Part shown: in pieces, positions 6,277-32,427 of the stretch | How positions within the stretch are numbered: position 1 is the first letter of the stretch | How the letters are laid out: the number at the start of each line of letters is the position of its first letter | NCBI RefSeq assembly: GCF_000281955.1 | Contig: NZ_AKKF01000188.1 | Coordinates: forward strand, 1 to 32,427 | Length of the DNA stretch: 32,427 nt | Direction of reading: 5' to 3' | DNA from: Caulobacter sp. AP07 | GTDB lineage: Bacteria; Pseudomonadota; Alphaproteobacteria; Caulobacterales; Caulobacteraceae | The notes under the pieces: generated by a model | The model's database searches: none | What the model saw: the letters and a program-made list of their open reading frames with translations, nothing else | What the model was told of the DNA's origin: nothing | Translations under genes and position numbers: made by a program

Positions 6277-7065
6277 ATGCACGCGACTGAGCGCGAAAAC
6301 CTTATCCTGCGCCTGCTGCAGGAGCGGGGTTTCATTGGGTTCCAGGAGCTGGACCAGCGCCTCGACGCCTCGCCCGCCACCATCCGCCGGGACCTGGAAC
6401 GCCTCGACGGCGAGGGTCGGATCGAACGCGTCCGGGGCGGGGCGCGCCTGGCCGGTCCCGCCGAGACGCCCAGCCCCGATCGCCCGCAACTGCGCGGCGT
6501 CCCCTTCCACGAGAACATCGCCCGCCACACGGCCGAGAAGGCGGCGATCGGCCGCGCCGCCGCCGCCCTGTGCCGGCCCGGCGAGGCGGTGATCATCGAC
6601 GGCGGCTCGACCACCCTGCAGATGTGCCACCACCTGGAGGCGCTGGAACTGCAGGTGCTGACCAACTCGCTGCACATCGTCAGCGCCCTGCTGCCGCAGC
6701 CCGGCACCCGCATCTCGATCCCGGGCGGCACGGTGTTCCGCGAGCAGAACATCGTCCTCAGCGCCTTCGAGGACGACGGGGCCAGCCGCTACCACGCCAG
6801 CAAGATGTTCCTGGGCGCCGAGGCCGTCGGCCGCCACGGGATCATGCAGAGCGACATCCTGCTGGTCCAGGCCGAGCGCGGCCTGCTGAACCGGGCCGAC
6901 GAGCTGATCCTGCTGGTCGACAGCAGCAAGTTCGCCGCCTCGGCCGGCCACGTGGTCTGCGGGCTGGGCGAGCTGGACCTGGTGATCACCGATCCAGGCC
7001 TGTCGGCCGCGCACCGCCAGATGCTCGAGGACGCGGACGTCCGCGTGGTCATCGCCGAGGGATAG
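6277..7065 (+). CDS. DeoR/GlpR-family transcriptional regulator, probable rhamnose regulator
   Basis: A 262-aa regulator with an N-terminal DeoR winged helix (about residues 6-57: RENLILRLLQERG, FQELDQRLDASPATIRRDL, GRIERVRGGARL) and a C-terminal sugar-phosphate-sensing domain with the phosphate loop IDGGSTTLQM. DeoR members are usually repressors released by a phosphorylated sugar, so rhamnulose-1-phosphate or DHAP-type metabolites would be natural effectors. I use ATG 6277, which has GGAGG 4 nt upstream; an upstream in-frame TTG at 6220 has no support. It closes the rhaD-rhaI operon, so the regulator would be autoregulated. Candidate operators lie at 2717-2758, 113-152 and 12030-12065. E. 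coli RhaR is an unrelated AraC protein, so I give no symbol. Confidence 0.88.
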   Translation: MHATERENLILRLLQERGFIGFQELDQRLDASPATIRRDLERLDGEGRIERVRGGARLAGPAETPSPDRPQLRGVPFHENIARHTAEKAAIGRAAAALCRPGEAVIIDGGSTTLQMCHHLEALELQVLTNSLHIVSALLPQPGTRISIPGGTVFREQNIVLSAFEDDGASRYHASKMFLGAEAVGRHGIMQSDILLVQAERGLLNRADELILLVDSSKFAASAGHVVCGLGELDLVITDPGLSAAHRQMLEDADVRVVIAEG

Positions 7066-7100
7066 GCGGGCGGCCACTTGTTCTGCTTTATGCGGATGCT

Positions 7101-7117
7101 GCGGAACATCGTTCCGC
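7101..7117. promoter_or_regulatory. Perfect palindrome upstream of the tryptophan dioxygenase gene
   Basis: GCGGAAC-ATC-GTTCCGC, a perfect 7-bp inverted repeat with a 3-base centre, lies 65-81 bp before the dioxygenase ATG and 36 bp after the regulator stop. A second, weaker repeat (TCCCC/GGGGA, 7129-7146) follows. With no T-run after it, an operator for a tryptophan- or kynurenine-responsive regulator is at least as likely as a terminator. Confidence 0.35.
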
Positions 7118-7181
7118 GCCTGAAGGCATCCCCACGCAAACGGGGACAAATGTGCCGTCGGGAACCGCCTAAGGTCGCCTC

Positions 7182-7973
7182 ATGACGCAAGACATGACTT
7201 ACGCGCGGTACCTCGCGCTGGACCTCTTGCTCGCGGCCCAGCAGCCGCTGAGCGACCGTCACGACGAACTGCTGTTCATCGTCATCCATCAGACCAAGGA
7301 GCTGTGGCTCAAGGAGATCATCCACGAGGTGAACCTGGCCAAGCGCCTGGTCGCCACGCACGATCTCGAGCCGGCCTACAAGGCCTTGGCCCGGGTGTCG
7401 CGGATCCAGACGGTGATGACCCTGTCGTGGGACGTGCTGGCGACGATGACTCCGGCCGACTACCTGAGCTTCCGGGGCGACCTGGGCTCCAGCTCGGGCT
7501 TCCAGTCGCACCAGTTCCGGACCCTGGAATACCTGCTGGGCTTGAAGGACCAGAGCTTCCTGAAGTTCCACGCCGAGGGTTCAGACGCCCTGGTGCAGTT
7601 GCGGACGGCCCTGGAGGCGCCCAGCCTCTACGACGTCGCCATCGCCCAGTTGGCCAAGGCGGGTCTGGCCGTGCCGGACGCGGTGCTGAACCGCGACTTC
7701 GCCCAGACCTATGCCCCCTCGCCCGAGGTGGAGGCCGCCTGGCTGGAGGTCTACCGCGACACCCAGCGCTATTGGGAACTGTACCAGCTGGCCGAGAAGC
7801 TGGTCGACCTGGACGACGCCCTGGTGACCTGGCGCCACAAGCACGTGCTGACCGTCGAACGGATCATCGGCGGGCGGCCGGGCACCGGCGGCACCGATGG
7901 CATCGGCTATCTGGCCTCGACCCTGCGCCGGCGCTGCTTCCCCGAGCTGTGGTCGCTGAGAACCAAGCTGTGA
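7182..7973 (+). CDS. kynA: Tryptophan 2,3-dioxygenase
   Basis: A 263-aa cytoplasmic heme enzyme that opens the indole ring of L-tryptophan with O2 to give N-formylkynurenine. Using residues recalled for the Xanthomonas campestris enzyme, a constant shift of 19 places the distal His55 at H36 (FIVIHQTKELW), Tyr113 and Arg117 at Y94 and R98 (DYLSFRGDL), and the heme-ligand His240 at H221 (TWRHKHVLTVERIIG). The substrate loop SSGFQSHQFR, a GTGG segment and the C-terminal FPELWSLR are also present. The bacterial short form fits. Its stop overlaps the GTG of the next gene (GTGA, 7970-7973), so the two are coupled. No formamidase (kynB) is in the window. Confidence 0.95.
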   Translation: MTQDMTYARYLALDLLLAAQQPLSDRHDELLFIVIHQTKELWLKEIIHEVNLAKRLVATHDLEPAYKALARVSRIQTVMTLSWDVLATMTPADYLSFRGDLGSSSGFQSHQFRTLEYLLGLKDQSFLKFHAEGSDALVQLRTALEAPSLYDVAIAQLAKAGLAVPDAVLNRDFAQTYAPSPEVEAAWLEVYRDTQRYWELYQLAEKLVDLDDALVTWRHKHVLTVERIIGGRPGTGGTDGIGYLASTLRRRCFPELWSLRTKL

Positions 7974-9130
7974 GCGCCCGCAAGGACCTGTTCTCACGGG
8001 CGTTGGCGGCCGCGCCCGACCGGCTGCACATGGCCGCCCACAGCCATCATCTCTGGCCCGACGTCACCCTGGCCGCCCAGGTCGAGGCCTGGGAGGACGC
8101 CGCCGTCCTGGCTGATCACAAGTGGGACAAGGCGCTGGGCGAAGTCTATCCGAGCGCGCAAGGCCTGGTCGCCCGCGAGCTCTCCCTGCCGTCGCCCGAC
8201 AGCGTCGTCTTCGCGCCCAACACCCACACCTTGCTGGCGGTGCTGTTGTCGGCGGTCGGCAAGCGACCCGTCCGGGTGTTGTCCACCGACGGCGAGTTCC
8301 ACTCGTTCCGCCGCCAGGCCCAGCGCTGGATCGAGGCCGGCGAGATCGAACTGACGCGGGTGGACAGCGACACGCCCGACTTCGCGGAACGGTTTCTGGC
8401 CGCGGCGCGCGCGGGCGGTTTCGACCTGATCTTCGTCAGCCACGTCTTCTTCAAGAGCGGCTTCGTCTTCGACCGGGTCTGGGAACTGGCCGACCTCGCG
8501 CGGCCGGAGGGACCGTGGGTGGTGGTCGACGGCTATCACGGCTTCCGGGCCATCCCGACGGACCTGTCGGCGGTGGCCGACCGCCTGTTCTACATCGCCG
8601 GCGGCTACAAATACGCCATGGCCGGGGAAGGGGCGGCGTTCCTGCACGCCCCGCCCGGTTTCGGACCGCGTCCAGCCCTGACGGGCTGGTACGCCGAGTT
8701 CGGCGACCTGGAGGGCCCGCCGGGCGGCGTGGGCTACGCCCGCGACGCCGGCCGCTTCCTGGGCGCGACCTTCGACCCGTCAGGGCTATACCGCTTCGTG
8801 GCGGCGGGACGGATGCTGGAGGCCCAGGGCCTGACCACGGCGGTGATCGCCGGGCACGTCGGCGGCCTGCAGGGAAACCTGCTGGCCGGGATCCCCGCCG
8901 GCGCGGCCGGGCCGCTGAAGGACGCCGTCCTGTTGAACCCGCCGGGCCGGGGCTCGCGAGCCCGCTTCCTGGCGCTGCGCCATCCCTCCGCTCAAGCCTG
9001 GAAACAGGCGCTGGCCGCGAAGGACGTGGTGGTGGACGTACGAGACGACGTCCTGCGGATCGGGCTCTCGATCTATCACGACGAGACGGACATCGCGACC
9101 TTCTGCGCGGCGTGTCGGGCGTTGCCCTAG
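7970..9130 (+). CDS. kynU: Kynureninase (PLP, aminotransferase class V fold)
   Basis: A 386-aa PLP enzyme expected to cleave L-kynurenine to anthranilate and L-alanine. The PLP lysine is K214 in GGYKYAMAGEGAAFL, preceded by Y213, and the cofactor pocket shows D188 and H191 in VVVDGYHGF. The D-to-H spacing (3) and D-to-K spacing (26) are the same as D201, H204 and K227 of Pseudomonas kynureninase. It is some 30 residues shorter than typical KynU and lacks the usual YKYLNGG wording, so it is a divergent member. The GTG start at 7970 gives a 4-base overlap with the dioxygenase. The context (tryptophan dioxygenase directly upstream) supports the assignment; a related class V lyase with another substrate remains possible. 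Confidence 0.78.
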   Translation: MSARKDLFSRALAAAPDRLHMAAHSHHLWPDVTLAAQVEAWEDAAVLADHKWDKALGEVYPSAQGLVARELSLPSPDSVVFAPNTHTLLAVLLSAVGKRPVRVLSTDGEFHSFRRQAQRWIEAGEIELTRVDSDTPDFAERFLAAARAGGFDLIFVSHVFFKSGFVFDRVWELADLARPEGPWVVVDGYHGFRAIPTDLSAVADRLFYIAGGYKYAMAGEGAAFLHAPPGFGPRPALTGWYAEFGDLEGPPGGVGYARDAGRFLGATFDPSGLYRFVAAGRMLEAQGLTTAVIAGHVGGLQGNLLAGIPAGAAGPLKDAVLLNPPGRGSRARFLALRHPSAQAWKQALAAKDVVVDVRDDVLRIGLSIYHDETDIATFCAACRALP

Positions 9131-27146: not shown

Positions 27147-27932
27147 TCAGGCGGCGCGGCGGGCGTAGAGGAACTCGATCACCGCCGCCCGGGCGTGGAT
27201 GTAGGTCGGGTCCTGGGCGACGGCCAGGCGGTCGCGCGGGCGATCCAGGGACACGTTCAGCACCTGGCCGATCGAGGCGCGCGGCCCGTTGGTCATCATC
27301 ACGATGCGGTCCGACAGCAGGGCCGCCTCGTCGACGTCGTGGGTGACCATCAGCACCGTGTTGTTCAAGGTCGCGTGGATCTCCATGACGCTGTCCTGCA
27401 GGTGGGCGCGGGTCAGGGCGTCCAGGGCCCCGAACGGCTCGTCCAGCAGCAGCACCTTGGGCTCCATGGCCAGAGCCCGGGCGATGCCGACCCGCTGCTT
27501 CATGCCGCCCGAGATCTCGGCGGGCCGCTTGTCCAGGGCGTGGGTCATCTTGACCAGGTCGAGGTTGTGCAGGGTCCAGTCGCGGCGCTCGGCGGCGCTC
27601 TTGCTGGCCCCGAACACCTTGTTGACCGCCAGGGAGACGTTCTCGCGCACCGACAGCCAGGGCAGCAGCGAGTGGTTCTGGAACACCACCGCCCGGTCGG
27701 GTCCCGGCGCGTTGACCTCCTGCTTGTCGAGGATCACCGCCCCGGTGGTTACGGGAACCAGGCCGGCGACCACGTTGAGCAAGGTCGACTTGCCGCAGCC
27801 GGAATGGCCGATGATCGAGACGAACTCGCCCTTGTCGACCCGCAGGTCGATGCCGGTCAGCACCTCGGAACGGGCGGCGCCCTTGGCGAAGGTGACGCCG
27901 ACGCCTTCGATGGAGAGATAGGCCTTGGCCAT
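27147..27932 (-). CDS. nrtC: Nitrate-type ABC transporter ATP-binding protein
   Basis: A 261-aa ABC ATPase that powers NrtB. Walker A is GHSGCGKST (about 43-51), the Q-loop VVFQNHSLLPW, the signature ISGGMKQR, Walker B VLLLDEPFGALD and the switch VTHDVDEA. The NHSLLPWLSV wording after the Q-loop is typical of the NrtC/NrtD/SsuB/TauB group. It is the short form without the NrtA-like C-terminal domain of cyanobacterial NrtC. AGGAG lies about 10 nt before the ATG, 12 bp after the permease gene. It is the last gene of the leftward operon and meets the MmgE/PrpD gene tail to tail with a 20-bp gap. Confidence 0.9.
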   Translation of the reverse strand: MAKAYLSIEGVGVTFAKGAARSEVLTGIDLRVDKGEFVSIIGHSGCGKSTLLNVVAGLVPVTTGAVILDKQEVNAPGPDRAVVFQNHSLLPWLSVRENVSLAVNKVFGASKSAAERRDWTLHNLDLVKMTHALDKRPAEISGGMKQRVGIARALAMEPKVLLLDEPFGALDALTRAHLQDSVMEIHATLNNTVLMVTHDVDEAALLSDRIVMMTNGPRASIGQVLNVSLDRPRDRLAVAQDPTYIHARAAVIEFLYARRAA

Positions 27933-27944
27933 GGTCGTGGTCTC

Positions 27945-28847
27945 CTAGCTGGCCGCGTTGCCGCGCGAGATGACGTGGCCCAGCAGGGCCACCAGGCGGT
28001 CGAGGAAGAAGCCGGTCAGACCGACCCAGGCCAGGGCCACGATGATGTCGGAGATGCGCGAGGCGTTGTACTGGTCCCAGATGAAGAAGCCGACGCCGAC
28101 GCCGCCCAGCAGCATCTCGGAAGCGACGATGGCCAGCCAGCTCATGCCGATGCCGATCCGCAGGCCGGTGAAGATGTAGGGCGCGGTGGCCGGCAGCAGG
28201 ATCTGGAAGAAGTACTCCACCGGCGACAGCCGCAGCACCTTGGCCACGTTGACATAGTCGGCCGGGATGTTGCGCACGCCGACGGCGGTGTTGATGATGA
28301 TCGGCCAGATCGAGGTGATGAAGATCACGAACAGGGCCGAGGGCTGGGCCTCGCGGAAGGCGGCCAGCGAGATCGGCAGCCAGGCCAGGGGCGGCACGGT
28401 GCGCAGCACCTGGAAGATCGGGTCGAGGCCCCGGTGCGCCCAGCGGTTGGAGCCGATCAGCACGCCCAGCATCACCCCGCACACCGCCGAGATCGAGAAG
28501 CCGATCCCGACCCGCTTGAGGCTGGTCAGCACGTGCCAGAACAGGCCCTTGTCGACCCCGCCGTTGTCGAAGAACGGGTCGAGGATCAGGGTCTTGGAGT
28601 CGGTCCAGACATGGGCGGGCGACGGCAGGCCGGCATAGGAGTCGCCGACCGCGACCTGCCAGACGCCGAGGATCGCCAGCAGGGTCAGCAGCGGCGGGAT
28701 CACCGCCGCCGCCGTCGCGCCGGCCCGCCGCTTCACTTCGGCGAGGCCGGAGGTCCGGGTCTCGCCGGCGGGCGGCGCGATGGCCGGCCCGGCCATGGGC
28801 CCGACCACCGGTTCGGCCGGCGAGAACGAGGGCTTGGGAAAGGTCAT
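27945..28847 (-). CDS. nrtB: Nitrate-type ABC transporter permease
   Basis: A 300-aa inner-membrane permease of the binding-protein-dependent type. A Pro/Ala-rich cytosolic N-terminus (to about residue 45) precedes some six transmembrane helices. LKRVGIGFSISAVCGVMLGVLIG, the FQVLRTVPPLAWLPI segment and the EAA-like loop near YVNVAKVLRLSPVEYFFQILLP match NrtB. A single permease and a single ATPase imply that both work as dimers. It lies 13 bp after nrtA. Confidence 0.9.
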   Translation of the reverse strand: MTFPKPSFSPAEPVVGPMAGPAIAPPAGETRTSGLAEVKRRAGATAAAVIPPLLTLLAILGVWQVAVGDSYAGLPSPAHVWTDSKTLILDPFFDNGGVDKGLFWHVLTSLKRVGIGFSISAVCGVMLGVLIGSNRWAHRGLDPIFQVLRTVPPLAWLPISLAAFREAQPSALFVIFITSIWPIIINTAVGVRNIPADYVNVAKVLRLSPVEYFFQILLPATAPYIFTGLRIGIGMSWLAIVASEMLLGGVGVGFFIWDQYNASRISDIIVALAWVGLTGFFLDRLVALLGHVISRGNAAS

Positions 28848-28860
28848 CGCCGCGCCCTCC

Positions 28861-30159
28861 CTAGACCAGCTTCTTGATCGGCTGGCTGGCCAGGTAGGCG
28901 CCCGGATTGGCCGGGTCGAACACCTTGCCGTCGAAGAACCGCTCGACGCCGCGGCTGTCGCCGGCGGGGCCCGTCTGGCCGATGGTCTTGGCCGCCGCGC
29001 GCCAGATGTCCGAGCGGTTGACCTTGTTGACCAGGGCCTGGGTGTTGGTCTTCTGCGGCAGCACGCCCCAGCGGATGTCCTCGGTCAGGAACCACAGGTC
29101 GTGCGACTTGAACGGGAAGCTGGCGTTGTCGGCCCAGAACTTCATCCGGTGCGGCGAGTTCTTCAGCGTCCGCCCGTCGCCATAGTCCACCGTGCCCTGC
29201 AGGCGGGGCAGGATGTCGCCCATCGGCACGTTGACGTACTGGCGGCCCGAGACGATCGAGCACATGGCCGGCAGGTTGGCGGCCTTGTCGCACCACAGGG
29301 CGGCTTCCTGCACGGCGGCGGTGATCGCCTGGGCGGCGCGCGGATACTTGTCGACCCAGGCGGCGCGCATGCCCAGCGCCTTTTCCGGGTGGTTCATCCA
29401 CAGTTCCGAGGTCAGGCAGGCGGTGTAGCCGACCCGCTGGTTGACCAGCTGGCCGTTCCACGGCTCGCCGACGCAGAAGGCGTCCTGGGTGCCGGCCTTC
29501 ATGTTGGCCACCATCTGCGGCGGCGGGATGACGATGGTGGCCACATCGGTCTCGGGATTGATGCCGCCGGCCGCCAGCCAGTAGCGCACCCACAGGTCGT
29601 GGGTGCCGCCCCGGAAGGTCATGGCCACCTTGGCGATGTTGCCGGCCGCCTTCAGTTGCAGGAACTTGGCCTTGGCGCCGGCGCTGTTCAGCCCGACCTT
29701 CACCGCCTTCAGGTCGTTGCCGACCGAGATGCCCTGGCCGTTGGTGTTGAGCCGGGCCAGCACGTACATCGGGGTCGGCGCGCCGCCGGTGATCGCGCCC
29801 GTGGTCATCAGATAGGGCATGGGCGACAGGATGTGGGCCCCGTCGATGCCGCCGCGCTCCGAGCCCAGCACCAGGTTGTCGCGGGTGGCGGCCCACGAGG
29901 CCTGCTTGACCACCTCCAGGTCGGGCAGGCCGTGCTTGGCGAACAGGCCGCGTTCCTTGGCGATGATCACCGGCGCGGAGTCGGTCAGGGCGATGAAGCC
30001 CAGCCGGGCCTTGGCCACCTCGGGTCCGGCGCCGGCGGCGTGGGCCCCGGCCGGGAACAGGGCCTTGGCGGCGGCGACCGTGGCGGCGGCTCCCACCAGG
30101 GCGTGGCGGCGGGTCAGGCCCGCTTCGGGCGTGGCGGCGGTCTTGTCGATCTTGGTCAT
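28861..30159 (-). CDS. nrtA: Periplasmic nitrate-binding protein, Tat-exported
   Basis: A 432-aa substrate-binding protein of the NrtA/CmpA family. The leader carries a twin-arginine motif, LTRRHALVGAAA (R17, R18), then a hydrophobic stretch ending PAGAHAAG, so it is exported folded. Family marks include LGFIALTDSAPVIIAKERGLF, DGAHILSPMPYLMTTG, VGLNSAGAKAKFLQL and DAFCVGEPWNGQLV. Nitrate or nitrite is the likely ligand; the related CmpA binds bicarbonate and by eye alone I cannot exclude other oxyanions. ATG 30159 is preferred to an in-frame TTG at 30168. It lies 22 bp after the porin gene. Confidence 0.92.
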   Translation of the reverse strand: MTKIDKTAATPEAGLTRRHALVGAAATVAAAKALFPAGAHAAGAGPEVAKARLGFIALTDSAPVIIAKERGLFAKHGLPDLEVVKQASWAATRDNLVLGSERGGIDGAHILSPMPYLMTTGAITGGAPTPMYVLARLNTNGQGISVGNDLKAVKVGLNSAGAKAKFLQLKAAGNIAKVAMTFRGGTHDLWVRYWLAAGGINPETDVATIVIPPPQMVANMKAGTQDAFCVGEPWNGQLVNQRVGYTACLTSELWMNHPEKALGMRAAWVDKYPRAAQAITAAVQEAALWCDKAANLPAMCSIVSGRQYVNVPMGDILPRLQGTVDYGDGRTLKNSPHRMKFWADNASFPFKSHDLWFLTEDIRWGVLPQKTNTQALVNKVNRSDIWRAAAKTIGQTGPAGDSRGVERFFDGKVFDPANPGAYLASQPIKKLV

Positions 30160-30181
30160 GAGCTGCAAATCCCGCTGGAAA

Positions 30182-31564
30182 TCAGAGTTTGTATTCGAGG
30201 GTGAACCAGGCCTTGGTCCGCGAGGCCGGCGGCGTCGCCGTGCCCAGGGGCACGGTCTTTTCGCGCTGGAAGTCGGCGTACTTCAGCTGGATCGAGAGCT
30301 TGGGGGTGATGGCGGCGGTGAACTGCACGTCCCACTCGCGGCCAAGGTCCGCGCCGGTCCTCTGGTCGTTGAAGTCGTGGTAGCGGACCAGGATGTCGGT
30401 GTTGAAGAAGTAGGTCCGCTTGAACCGCGGCTTGGCGTTGAAGCTGAGGTTGGCGTCCTCGATCCCGTCGACGAAGCTCTTGTTGCCGCCCGGCGAGACG
30501 AAGGCGTCGGACCAGCCCTGGAAGGCGTGGACGGTGGCCAGGGGCGTGGTGAAGCCCCGGGTCCCGTTACCCTCCAGCGACTCGTAGCTGGCCTTGACCG
30601 TGTAGATGTCGAAGGTGCCGGCGACGTCGCCGCCGAAATAGGCCAGGTCGAAGTCGGGCGTGTTGCCGTGATACTCCGACTGCTTGGCGTAGGTGGCGTT
30701 GTAGGCCAGCTGGTAGAGGCCGACCCAGGTCTTGCCCGAGGCCTTGACCCCCTTGGTCAGCGACGAGTTGACCGCCGAATTGCCGAAGTCGAGGGCGTAG
30801 ACGAAGCCCTGCAGGCGCAGCGCCTCGGCCGGTGACCAGGTGACGTTCAGCAGGTGGCTATCCGAGTCCCAGTCCTTCAGCTCGCCGAGGATGCGGTTGA
30901 TGTGGGTGACATAGGCGTAGGTCGCCTTGAACCGGCCCAGGGCGACGTCGGCGCGGACGGCGTCGAAGGTCTGCTCGTCCTGACGCCAGCCGACATTGCC
31001 GACGAAGCGCTGATCGTCGAGCAGGATGCGCTGGCGGCCGGCGGTGACCTGCAGGGCGGCGCTCGGCGTCCAGGTCAGCTGGGCGCGGTTCAGCTCGGTG
31101 ACGTCCGGGTCGTTGACGATCGGATACTTGGCCTTGTCGGCCCCGTTCAGCGGCGGGGTGGCCACGCCCGGCACGTTGACGGCGTAGTGTTCGGGACCGG
31201 CCTGGCGGACGTCCTCGAACTCGATCAGGCCCTTGACGCTGTGGAACTCGGCGGTCTCCCAGCCCAGGCGGGTGCGGATCGTGAAGGCCGAGGCGTCGTC
31301 GGTCAGCGTCGCGGTCTTGGTCTGGTCGACGCCCTCGTAGCGGGCCCGGACCTCCAGGATCAGCTTTCCGGCCGCGACCTGGTCGCTGAAGGTCGGCGGC
31401 GGCGGCGGTTCGACGGCCTCGGCCGCCGGTTCGGCGACGGCTTCGCCAGCCGGCTCCGCGACCGCTGGAACCGGTTCCGGCGCGGCTTGAGCAAAGGCCG
31501 TTCCGCCCAACGTCAGGGCGCAGAAAGCCACGCTGCAACGCAGCATTCCTCGCGAGTTTTTCAT
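30182..31564 (-). CDS. Outer-membrane beta-barrel porin (alginate-export-like) heading the nitrate operon
   Basis: A 460-aa protein with a signal peptide (about 1-26: LRCSVAFCALTLGGTAFAQ) and an Ala/Glu/Pro-rich linker built of repeated AEPA-like units (about 27-60). The barrel follows, with alternating aromatic beta-strands (for example LILEVRARYEGVDQT, FTIRTRLGWETAEF, VTAGRQRILLDDQRFVGNVGWRQDEQTFDAVR) and ends WFTLEYKL. The QRxxxDDQRFVGxVGWRQ region is typical of the alginate-export-like porin family. ATG 31564 has GGGGGA as ribosome binding site; the frame stays open upstream but through the leader terminator, so I exclude that part. It most likely lets nitrate through the outer membrane to NrtA. 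Expression is probably set by the attenuator at 31585-31709. Confidence 0.85.
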   Translation of the reverse strand: MKNSRGMLRCSVAFCALTLGGTAFAQAAPEPVPAVAEPAGEAVAEPAAEAVEPPPPPTFSDQVAAGKLILEVRARYEGVDQTKTATLTDDASAFTIRTRLGWETAEFHSVKGLIEFEDVRQAGPEHYAVNVPGVATPPLNGADKAKYPIVNDPDVTELNRAQLTWTPSAALQVTAGRQRILLDDQRFVGNVGWRQDEQTFDAVRADVALGRFKATYAYVTHINRILGELKDWDSDSHLLNVTWSPAEALRLQGFVYALDFGNSAVNSSLTKGVKASGKTWVGLYQLAYNATYAKQSEYHGNTPDFDLAYFGGDVAGTFDIYTVKASYESLEGNGTRGFTTPLATVHAFQGWSDAFVSPGGNKSFVDGIEDANLSFNAKPRFKRTYFFNTDILVRYHDFNDQRTGADLGREWDVQFTAAITPKLSIQLKYADFQREKTVPLGTATPPASRTKAWFTLEYKL

Positions 31565-31584
31565 GCCTTGATCCCCCAAAGACC

Positions 31585-31626
31585 AAAAAAAAACGCCCGG
31601 CGAGATCGCGGCGGCGATCTCTCCGG
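31585..31626 (-). terminator. Intrinsic terminator in the leader of the porin-nrtABC operon (attenuator)
   Basis: On the leftward strand a 13-bp stem with one mismatch (CCGGaGAGATCGC, loop CGCC, GCGATCTCgCCGG; 31626-31597) is followed 3 nt later by nine T residues (31593-31585). The porin ATG comes only 20 nt further on, so this terminator would stop the operon's own transcript unless overridden. Its first bases (31626-31622) are shared with the second leader hairpin. Confidence 0.85.
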
Positions 31627-31641
31627 ACGTCGTTGTCCAAA
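31622..31641 (-). ncRNA. ANTAR-type leader hairpin 2 (antiterminator)
   Basis: UUUGGAC-AACGAC-GUCCGGA: a 7-bp stem (two U-G pairs) with a hexaloop having A at position 1 and G at position 4. The 3' strand overlaps the 5' strand of the terminator by 5 bases, so the two folds exclude each other. Binding by an ANTAR protein such as NasT or NasR would stabilise this fold and allow read-through. Confidence 0.75.
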
Positions 31642-31687
31642 CGGTACCTGGCGGCTGCATCGCCGCTGGGCGGCCCTCTCGGGCCTG

Positions 31688-31709
31688 CGCGGAACGTCGT
31701 TGTCCCGCG
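31688..31709 (-). ncRNA. ANTAR-type leader hairpin 1
   Basis: CGCGGGAC-AACGAC-GUUCCGCG: an 8-bp stem (one G-U pair) with the same AACGAC hexaloop as hairpin 2. A 46-nt linker between the two contains a GGCCC-GAGA-GGGCC hairpin and a GCGGC/GCCGC hairpin. Paired hexaloops with A1 and G4 are the known recognition pattern of ANTAR-domain antiterminators. Confidence 0.72.
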
Positions 31710-31743
31710 TGTCGAGATCAGGAAGGGGCCGGCGGCGCGACGC

Positions 31744-31759
31744 GGCAATTGGAAAACCG
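31744..31759 (-). promoter_or_regulatory. Candidate sigma-54 -24/-12 promoter of the porin-nrtABC operon
   Basis: Leftward strand CGGTTTTCCAATTGCC has GG, ten bases, then GC, with a full TTGC at -12 but a poor -24 (CGGT rather than TGGC). Transcription would begin near 31734, about 25 nt before hairpin 1. No good sigma-70 promoter was obvious nearby, but the -24 mismatch keeps this tentative. Confidence 0.35.
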
Positions 31760-31796
31760 CGTTATGTCGCACCGCAACAAGAGAATGGGGTCATTT

Positions 31797-31813
31797 TGCA
31801 CAGCGGCCATGCA
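31797..31813. promoter_or_regulatory. Candidate NtrC binding site upstream of the nitrate operon
   Basis: TGCACAGCGGCCATGCA is a 17-bp dyad matching the outer bases of the classic NtrC site (TGCAC...GTGCA) at nine of ten positions. It lies about 65-80 bp before the predicted transcription start and in the intergenic region, consistent with control by nitrogen status. The rest of 31814-31919 shows nothing else I can interpret. Confidence 0.35.
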
Positions 31814-31919
31814 GGGCCGGCGCGGTCGATGCTTGAATTTCGCGCGTTTATGCGTCGCGTCCAGCCCGTGCGCCGCCGCGCCGATCGCTCTTGATCACAC
31901 CGCGGAGGTCGCCGCCGCC

Positions 31920-32427
31920 CTACCGGGTCGCCCAGGCCCGGCCGAGTTCCGACAGCGGCACGCACCCGTGGTAGGCGCCCGGTATGGGGTCGTATCTCAA
32001 CGCCACCGTCGCGCCGGGTTCGGATGTGAAATAGCCGACCGTCACCAGGTTCTCGAGCACCAGGAAGAAGTGGGCGTCGTCAGGTGTTTCGTTGCGAACC
32101 GCCGAGGCTTCACGGTCATAGCCGGTCAGAAGCTCGACCTGCTGCTGCGGCGTCAACGCGACGAAGACGTCGCCATGGGCGGCGCGAGCGTCGGCGTCCA
32201 TGCGCGCCAGTCCTCCCAGCAGCCGCTCCTTCTGGGCCTTGTCGTAATAGTTGGCCAACGCGCGATCGATGAACTGCGGCACGCCGGCTTCCCGGGCGCC
32301 CGGCGTGTCCGTGGCGGGGATGATCAGTTCGGCCACCACGTCCACCAGCCGCGCCTGGTCGGGCGCCAGCGCCGTGGGGGTCCAGGTCAGTGTCTGGGCG
32401 GCGGCTCGTCCGGCCCAGCCGGTCGCC
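31920..32427 (-). CDS. Gluconate 2-dehydrogenase subunit 3-like protein, 5' end outside the window
   Basis: At least 168 residues are visible and the frame is open to the right edge; the GTG at 32345 sits in the middle of the conserved domain, so it is not the start. The core TALAPDQARLVDVVAELIIPATDTPGAREAGVPQFIDR is the hallmark of the Gluconate_2-dh3 family, followed by ALTPQQQVELLTGYDREA and a C-terminal GYFTSEPGATVALRYDPIPGAYHGCVPL. In characterised systems this small, usually Tat-exported subunit partners a flavin GMC dehydrogenase and a cytochrome c subunit in the periplasm. The partner genes should lie beyond the right edge or downstream of elsewhere-encoded copies; downstream here is the nitrate operon's promoter. 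The N-terminal signal is not visible. Confidence 0.85.
   Translation of the reverse strand, partial: ATGWAGRAAAQTLTWTPTALAPDQARLVDVVAELIIPATDTPGAREAGVPQFIDRALANYYDKAQKERLLGGLARMDADARAAHGDVFVALTPQQQVELLTGYDREASAVRNETPDDAHFFLVLENLVTVGYFTSEPGATVALRYDPIPGAYHGCVPLSELGRAWATR

Follow-up and report, generated by a model that had tools for sequence, protein, structure and literature searches.

A probable ANTAR-type antitermination leader with a long folded spacer ahead of a porin-nrtABC operon in Caulobacter sp. AP07

How is a nitrate uptake operon controlled when its first gene encodes a channel of the outer membrane? The question is raised by a stretch of 32,427 nucleotides from Caulobacter sp. AP07 (contig NZ_AKKF01000188.1, positions 1 to 32,427; hereafter the window), whose minus strand carries four closely packed genes. 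The first (30182–31564) encodes an Alginate_exp-family channel of the outer membrane (Pfam PF13372, 44.5 bits, cut-off 25.2; no NCBIfam match), referred to below as the porin. It is followed, with intergenic gaps of 12 or 13 nt, by genes for an nrtA-type binding protein of the NMT1_2 family (28861–30168; PF13379, E 1.2e-96; no NCBIfam match over cut-off), the ntrB-type permease nrtB (27945–28847; TIGR01183, nitrate ABC transporter permease, 320.6 bits, cut-off 209) and an ntrCD-type, nrtC-type ATPase (27147–27932; TIGR01184, nitrate ABC transporter ATP-binding protein, 340.4 bits, cut-off 291.8). With nrtB and nrtC identified by equivalog/subfamily matches over cut-off, nitrogen-metabolism genes lie downstream of the leader as they do behind ANTAR RNAs, and we read the four genes as an operon, porin-nrtA-nrtB-nrtC. 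The leader of this operon is, at a probability of roughly 0.93, an ANTAR-type antitermination switch that places all four genes under NasT. The direct basis of this reading is the sequence, the mutual exclusion of two structures on paper, covariation, a single NasT encoded beside NasS and the co-occurrence of leader and regulator; from these we infer that NasT binds the leader and that the leader responds to nitrate.

In the order of transcription the minus strand presents a hairpin P1, a linker with two hairpins (La and Lb), a hairpin P2, a terminator, a run of nine T, 20 nt and the porin start at 31564. P1 (31709–31688) is an 8-bp hairpin, CGCGGGAC-AACGAC-GTTCCGCG, and P2 (31641–31622) a 7-bp hairpin, TTTGGAC-AACGAC-GTCCGGA. 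Both have the stems of at least 3 bp and the hexaloops with A1 and G4 that define ANTAR RNA hairpins. The 46-nt linker (31687–31642) folds into La (31685–31672; GGCCC-GAGA-GGGCC) and Lb (31671–31646; GCC..GCGGC-GATGCA-GCCGC..GGU). On reading the sequence, the preliminary description proved right about the positions of the two hairpins with identical loops, the linker with its two extra hairpins, and the T9 run (31593–31585) followed after 20 nt by the porin ATG. Its 13-bp terminator overlapping P2 is real too but larger than described: the intrinsic stem spans 31630–31593 and comprises 8 + 8 pairs with one A.G mismatch between them (ACGTCCGG.A.GAGATCGC / GCGATCTC.G.CCGGGCGT). The bases shared with P2, given as 31622–31626, likewise extend over 31630–31622, that is, the full P2 3' strand and the last two loop bases. 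Since the whole 3' strand of P2 lies inside the 5' strand of the terminator, the two structures are mutually exclusive, as expected of an ANTAR RNA in which P2 is the antiterminator half.

Folding of the leader (31715–31564) gives a z of -4.6, with 0 of 200 shuffles equally stable. A detector that looks for two A..G.. hexaloop hairpins and an overlapping terminator found this single site when both strands of the window were scanned; 60 copies randomised by a first-order Markov model yielded no site. When the nascent RNA was folded every 4 nt, P2 was present at lengths 89 to 113 of 128 and gone from 117; the computed energy of the terminator stem alone is -28.9 kcal/mol vs -6.7 for P2. A generic terminator scan listed nothing in 31400–32000, a miss that we attribute to the A.G mismatch and the large loop left for the outer 8 pairs. 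Rfam returned no match for the window at gathering scores and no ANTAR match; a sub-threshold match to RF00236 at the leader (22 bits, cut-off 45, E 0.027) looks like chance. A search for a sigma-70 consensus promoter found none, and inspection of the upstream DNA by eye, unscored, showed no good candidate for a sigma-54 promoter (GG-N10-GC); transcription presumably starts just upstream of 31709. A loose hexaloop pattern is useless alone because its counts in the genome (257 + 284 matches) are near those of a reversed control (257 + 259). With R1, a covariance model built from the leaders of this analysis, the own genome gave a second match on another contig (18.3 bits, E 1.46), by eye an ordinary terminator behind a coding region.

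Relatives of the porin occur in 56 of the 149 genomes of the family. The scan of named genomes comprised 78 porin loci from the best 80 of 345 matches, mostly from Caulobacter, Phenylobacterium and Asticcacaulis, and a leader of this type precedes the porin in 59 of these 78. Counting the window with the 78 loci, the detector had flagged 61 of 79 rows for P2 and terminator, one of which, L090, was spurious on reading, leaving 59 loci and the window; in three others (L052, L057 and L058) it took P1 for P2, both hairpins being present on reading. From the 60 leaders, one duplicate (L056) and nine without a detected P1 at 25–60 nt were taken out, and 43 of the remaining 50 form alignment A2, with L052 and six Asticcacaulis leaders left aside.

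In the terminator conformation, A2 has two-sided changes in 25 of 34 pairs (shuffle mean 16.7, 0 of 500 reaching 25), and 90.4 % of its cells are paired vs 33.5–47.7 % with the partners slid by 1–3 columns. Changes on both sides affect 5 of 8 pairs in P1, 4 of 5 in La (81 % of cells paired), all 5 of the inner pairs counted in Lb (its two parts having 89 % and 68 % paired cells) and 11 of 16 in the terminator. Because a leader enters the set only with A..G.. loops, a P1 stem of at least 5 bp and an overlapping terminator with 8 pairs or more, as the detector requires, the 100 % pairing of P1 is by construction. The alignment for compensatory changes that the preliminary description had proposed as a check spoke for its reading: they are found in P1, the linker hairpins and the terminator, and only P2 lacks them, as its stem is invariant in A2 (GGAC/GTCC core in 43 of 43 rows) and so yields no covariation there. 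In Asticcacaulis, P2 reads AGAC/GTCT or GGAC/GTCT, with terminators that match by eye. Three leaders depart from A1, L070 and L075 in P1 and L052 in P2; G4 is intact in the leaders read.

The leader tends to occur where nitrate genes are near. Among the same 78 loci (best 80 of 345 matches), it is found in 58 of 61 with nas/nrt genes near and in 1 of 16 without (p 3.5e-12; one locus without upstream DNA excluded). Three nas/nrt loci were scored as leaderless. Read by eye, the leader of L091 is degenerate, none was seen in L107 (Hirschia maritima), and L101 has both hexaloop hairpins, no more than about 150 nt upstream of its porin match, with no T-run; the L101 leader may act on translation. 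A leader that precedes the porin alone occurs in C. endophyticus 774, whose 11-kb locus (L068) held no nrtA, nrtB or nasT that we could find, and the porin channel itself consequently looks like a NasT target. The same locus has a second porin copy upstream. Tandem porin copies, about 300 bp apart, are also seen in six Caulobacter genomes (G056, G064, G071, G086, G142 and G146).

A NasT homologue encoded elsewhere in the genome, which the preliminary description had postulated, does exist. The genome has one ANTAR match, NasT-like, at 74.7 bits (cut-off 27.3), and it lies on another contig (C252); in the locus taken from there (L166), the ORFs at 6313–6891 (nasT, ANTAR, 192 aa) and 6888–8045 (a nasS-like partner of the NMT1_2 family, 385 aa) overlap by 4 nt; nasT thus adjoins an NrtA-like nasS, the arrangement that characterises NasS-NasT systems. 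The closest solved structures are 1s8n, then 6wsh, 4akk ('nitrate regulatory protein', which we take to be NasR) and AmiR. The second of these, 6wsh, is EutV, in which Tyr164, Met172, Arg142, Lys143 and Lys147 contact the RNA or are important for binding (PMC8934654); given a chain-numbering shift of two, they correspond to Y159, M167, R137, K138 and R142 of this NasT, all identical or similar residues. EutV is phosphorylated on Asp54 (PMC8934654); unlike EutV, this NasT has Ala at the aligned residue (same shift of two, read from the alignment), which would suit sequestration by NasS over phosphorylation.

Leader and regulator also go together across the genus. Exactly one ANTAR match is present in 45 of 75 Caulobacter genomes, and strong R1 matches (at least 77 bits; the next reach 28) occur in 28 of these 45 vs 0 of the 30 ANTAR-less genomes (Fisher p 3.8e-9), in a scan limited by strict filters and to 48 scored candidates per genome, which may for that reason miss leaders. 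Weak R1 matches (up to 28 bits) occur here and there, both in genomes that have ANTAR and in genomes that lack it, the latter including 5 of the 30 (E 0.03–1, below 26 bits). The 17 ANTAR genomes with no strong leader match include one with no porin match (G035) and one with a distant one (G138). Within the 78 loci from the best 80 of 345 matches, 30 have nasT on the strand of the porin match and 1.9–2.3 kb upstream of it, and 3 more have nasT about 4.5 kb downstream. A nasS-like gene of more than 45 % identity stands between nasT and the porin in 22 of these 30; the other 8 are from Asticcacaulis and more distant loci and did not reach 45 %.

For EutV it has been shown that a protein keeping P2 closed prevents termination. 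We propose a corresponding course of events here. As long as nitrate is absent, NasS would hold NasT; P2 would form first, the 3' strand of the terminator would displace it and transcription would end at the T-run. Nitrate would cause NasS to release NasT, which, bound to both hexaloops, would keep P2 closed, so that the polymerase reads into the porin and the transporter. The two hairpins of the linker would serve to hold P1 and P2 close enough together though they are far apart in sequence. In its outline, an ANTAR-type two-hairpin antitermination leader before porin-nrtABC, this is what the preliminary description had proposed, and the covariation and the location of NasT beside NasS speak for it.

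Several well-described systems share parts of this arrangement. The eut leaders read by EutV in Enterococcus faecalis also have two A1/G4 hexaloop hairpins with P2 within the terminator and a REC-ANTAR protein (PMC3369931, PMC8934654). The NasR/nasF leader of Klebsiella oxytoca combines nitrate, an ANTAR domain and a two-hairpin target with antitermination (PMC3369931, PMC7496416); unlike the Caulobacter NasS-NasT pair, Klebsiella NasR unites nitrate sensing and RNA binding in one protein and has no NasS. Paracoccus denitrificans has the same regulator pair, and there nitrate frees NasT from NasS and NasT binds the leader RNA (PMC3795266); in the nasA leader, hairpin HI is needed in vivo (PMC5424462). 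That leader precedes a nas operon adjoining nasTS, whereas the leader described here precedes porin-nrtABC on a contig other than that of nasTS. Alphaproteobacterial NasT antitermination is also described at nosR, nap and nirA of Bradyrhizobium diazoefficiens (PMC6759348); the words nrtA and porin are absent from the main text of that study. Hairpins alone do not prove activation, since Bradyrhizobium narK-bjgb-flp has predicted NasT hairpins and behaves in the opposite manner, its expression rising in the nasT mutant (PMC6759348).

The linker is where the leader departs from the known pattern. Linkers measure 5–12 nt in E. faecalis eut, although PMC3369931 itself describes the linker as variable, and one search definition of ANTAR RNAs admits 2–25 nt (PMC8164766); the 46 nt of the window exceed both limits, and for this reason we class the leader as a variant and not as a plain member. 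The eut system is also intolerant of lengthening: with EutV, a 14-nt linker cut induction drastically, and in vitro there was no antitermination once 20 nt had been added (PMC3369931, PMC8934654). Either NasT may differ from EutV in this respect, or folding may rescue the spacing. In 49 folded leaders the linker is 28–55 nt long (the set being restricted to 25–60 nt), with two hairpins in 39 and one in 10 and a mean z of -2.9; six linkers from Asticcacaulis that were folded have one hairpin each, and the linker of L072, outside this set, is 22 nt long. After folding, 4–19 nt remain free (median 9), and 92 % of the real linkers have 4–12 free nt vs 65 % of shuffled ones. As evidence of selection, however, this compaction is weakened by the fact that shuffled linkers are equally compact on average (about 7 free nt) and only less uniform (sd 4.6 vs 2.8 in real linkers). 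That free length matters is best suggested by a Phenylobacterium MAG (L066, 4866–4909, plus strand), in which the linker hairpins are missing, apparently through a natural deletion of both, and 8 nt, CAACACCA, separate P1 from P2; its cluster has nasT upstream and nrtA downstream. On balance the odds lean, by a small margin, towards a spacer role in which folding of the linker keeps P1 and P2 within reach of each other despite their distance in sequence.

The two linker hairpins could instead constitute a second input, being the site of another protein or of a small molecule, or a pause that gives NasT time at P1, a reading that competes with the spacer role and not with control by NasT. La and Lb both covary, the loop of La is often GNRA-like (GAGA, GCAA, GCGA, GAAA), and compaction alone would hardly require two conserved hairpins when shuffled linkers are about as compact. 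An aptamer would, however, not be expected to vary as these elements do in loops, stems and number of hairpins (one in each of six Asticcacaulis linkers, none in L066), and we regard a second input as unlikely, albeit the strongest of the rival explanations.

The preliminary description had called the long structured linker unusual, and against the published limits it is. It is common to Caulobacter, Phenylobacterium and some relatives, but long linkers were detected in a few other Alphaproteobacteria as well, and the idea that they are unique to this group had to be rejected. When 29 NrtA loci from other Alphaproteobacteria were scanned, the detector picked out 6, whose linkers measure 6, 19, 25, 31, 35 and 62 nt. 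A stricter version, applied to the regions around 40 of the 51 ANTAR matches outside the own genome (one of the 40 belonging to the same order), found one place in each of 10 regions and nothing in the other 30; the linkers in these 10 places are 2, 2, 4, 4, 5, 9, 25, 35, 46 and 62 nt long, with 2–12 free nt. Three places are common to the two scans, and several of the places may be due to chance. A long spacing may also apply to the Paracoccus nasA leader, in which HI and HII are 46 bp apart (PMC5424462).

A possible second target of NasT is found ahead of the nas operon of the same genome (MFS transporter, nirB, molybdopterin oxidoreductase and tetrapyrrole methylase), which begins 390 nt into another contig (C241). 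Its leader (L165, 280–374, plus strand) contains one A1/G4 hexaloop hairpin and no terminator. The MFS transporter is present in 43 of 75 Caulobacter genomes, and all 30 of the Caulobacter loci compared have the single hexaloop hairpin, followed on its 3' side by nearly invariant segments, GGCTGCCAGAG...GACCGCTCGGATGCGGTC...CTCTCGCAGAC, and a variable hairpin, with no T-run. Covariation on both sides is confined to the variable hairpin, and a three-way junction is possible. Run against 348 genomes of the order, a model of this leader matched 19 with E no higher than 0.1, including 13 Caulobacter at 1.6e-17 or better; of the weaker matches, three in another family (G620, G632, G693) and one in Phenylobacterium (G098) have, by eye, the same transporter downstream, and two (G459, G686) look like chance. 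Rfam gave no gathering-level match for five nas-leader loci, nor any match in an evalue-mode search of the nas leader of L169. The nas leader may be a terminator-free NasT target and is put forward as a candidate.

Such a leader bears on the possibility that the ANTAR target before the porin regulates mRNA stability or translation, the terminator playing a minor part. That an A1/G4 hexaloop occurs with no T-run in the nas leader of the same genus, and that ANTAR RNAs overlapping ribosome-binding sites have been predicted in actinobacteria (PMC8164766), would be in keeping with it; the overlap of P2 and terminator is nevertheless preserved with compensatory changes, which makes regulation of this kind very improbable. 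Least probable of all is that the stem is the ordinary terminator of the upstream gene (Gluconate_2-dh3 family, stop at 31920) with chance loops and the porin promoter further downstream, for although that gene is on the same strand and the promoter scan found no start site, the terminator lies about 290 nt beyond the stop codon and 20 nt short of the porin ATG, with no room for a promoter between, the two hexaloop hairpins and their covariation would go unexplained, and the leader persists in the 22 loci where a nasS-like gene takes the place of the window's upstream gene.

Besides NasT, an activator might act further upstream of both leaders. TGCTnnGCA or TGCnnAGCA precedes P1 in 19 of 50 porin leaders, always at -93 to -98, and is found in 22 of 30 nas leaders, in 21 at -96 to -98 of the hexaloop hairpin. 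The window has at 31794–31805 (minus strand) a one-base variant of the TGCTGnGCAA motif, CGCTGTGCAAAA; the exact pattern is absent there, and it has 14 matches in the 64,854 positions of the whole window. The motif is possibly an activator site. For NtrC of C. crescentus, peaks have been reported in the narK promoter as well as at the nasT 5' end (PMC10274813). Ownership by NtrC is only suggested, and the Paracoccus NtrC consensus, (T/C)GC(C/A)NNNNTTNNT(G/A)GCA (PMC5424462), is longer than TGCTGnGCAA and unlike it. A dual control, in which nitrogen need would be read at the promoter and nitrate at the leader, is plausible.

The type of switch and the presence of nitrate transporters among its predicted targets are already known: a survey of 1902 genomes reported the class, with predicted ANTAR RNAs before nitrate/nitrite transporter genes (PMC3369931). 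The words Caulobacter, porin and nrtA are absent from the main text of that survey, and a search of titles and beginnings of abstracts, mostly of open journals, gave among the matches listed no paper on the Caulobacter leader described here or on a NasT-controlled porin. As far as these searches went, the long folded spacer, a variant of the known switch, appears to be new, and so does the target, an operon headed by a porin.

If the antitermination switch operates as proposed, nitrate-dependent antitermination would extend to the outer membrane. A filter for linkers of 2–25 nt would miss most of the leaders found here. That free length, and not length in sequence, is what matters is a testable statement on how an ANTAR protein bridges two hairpins, and the deletion in L066 offers a natural control for the spacer idea. 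More tentatively, and with the balance somewhat against it, the NasT antiterminators of Caulobacterales could form a distinct architectural class, in which a long covarying spacer with hairpins takes the place of the short linker and selection acts on some 4–12 free nt between P1 and P2 and not on the number of nucleotides, the same NasT also acting on the terminator-free nas leader; if this were true, one ANTAR protein would use two mechanisms in one cell.
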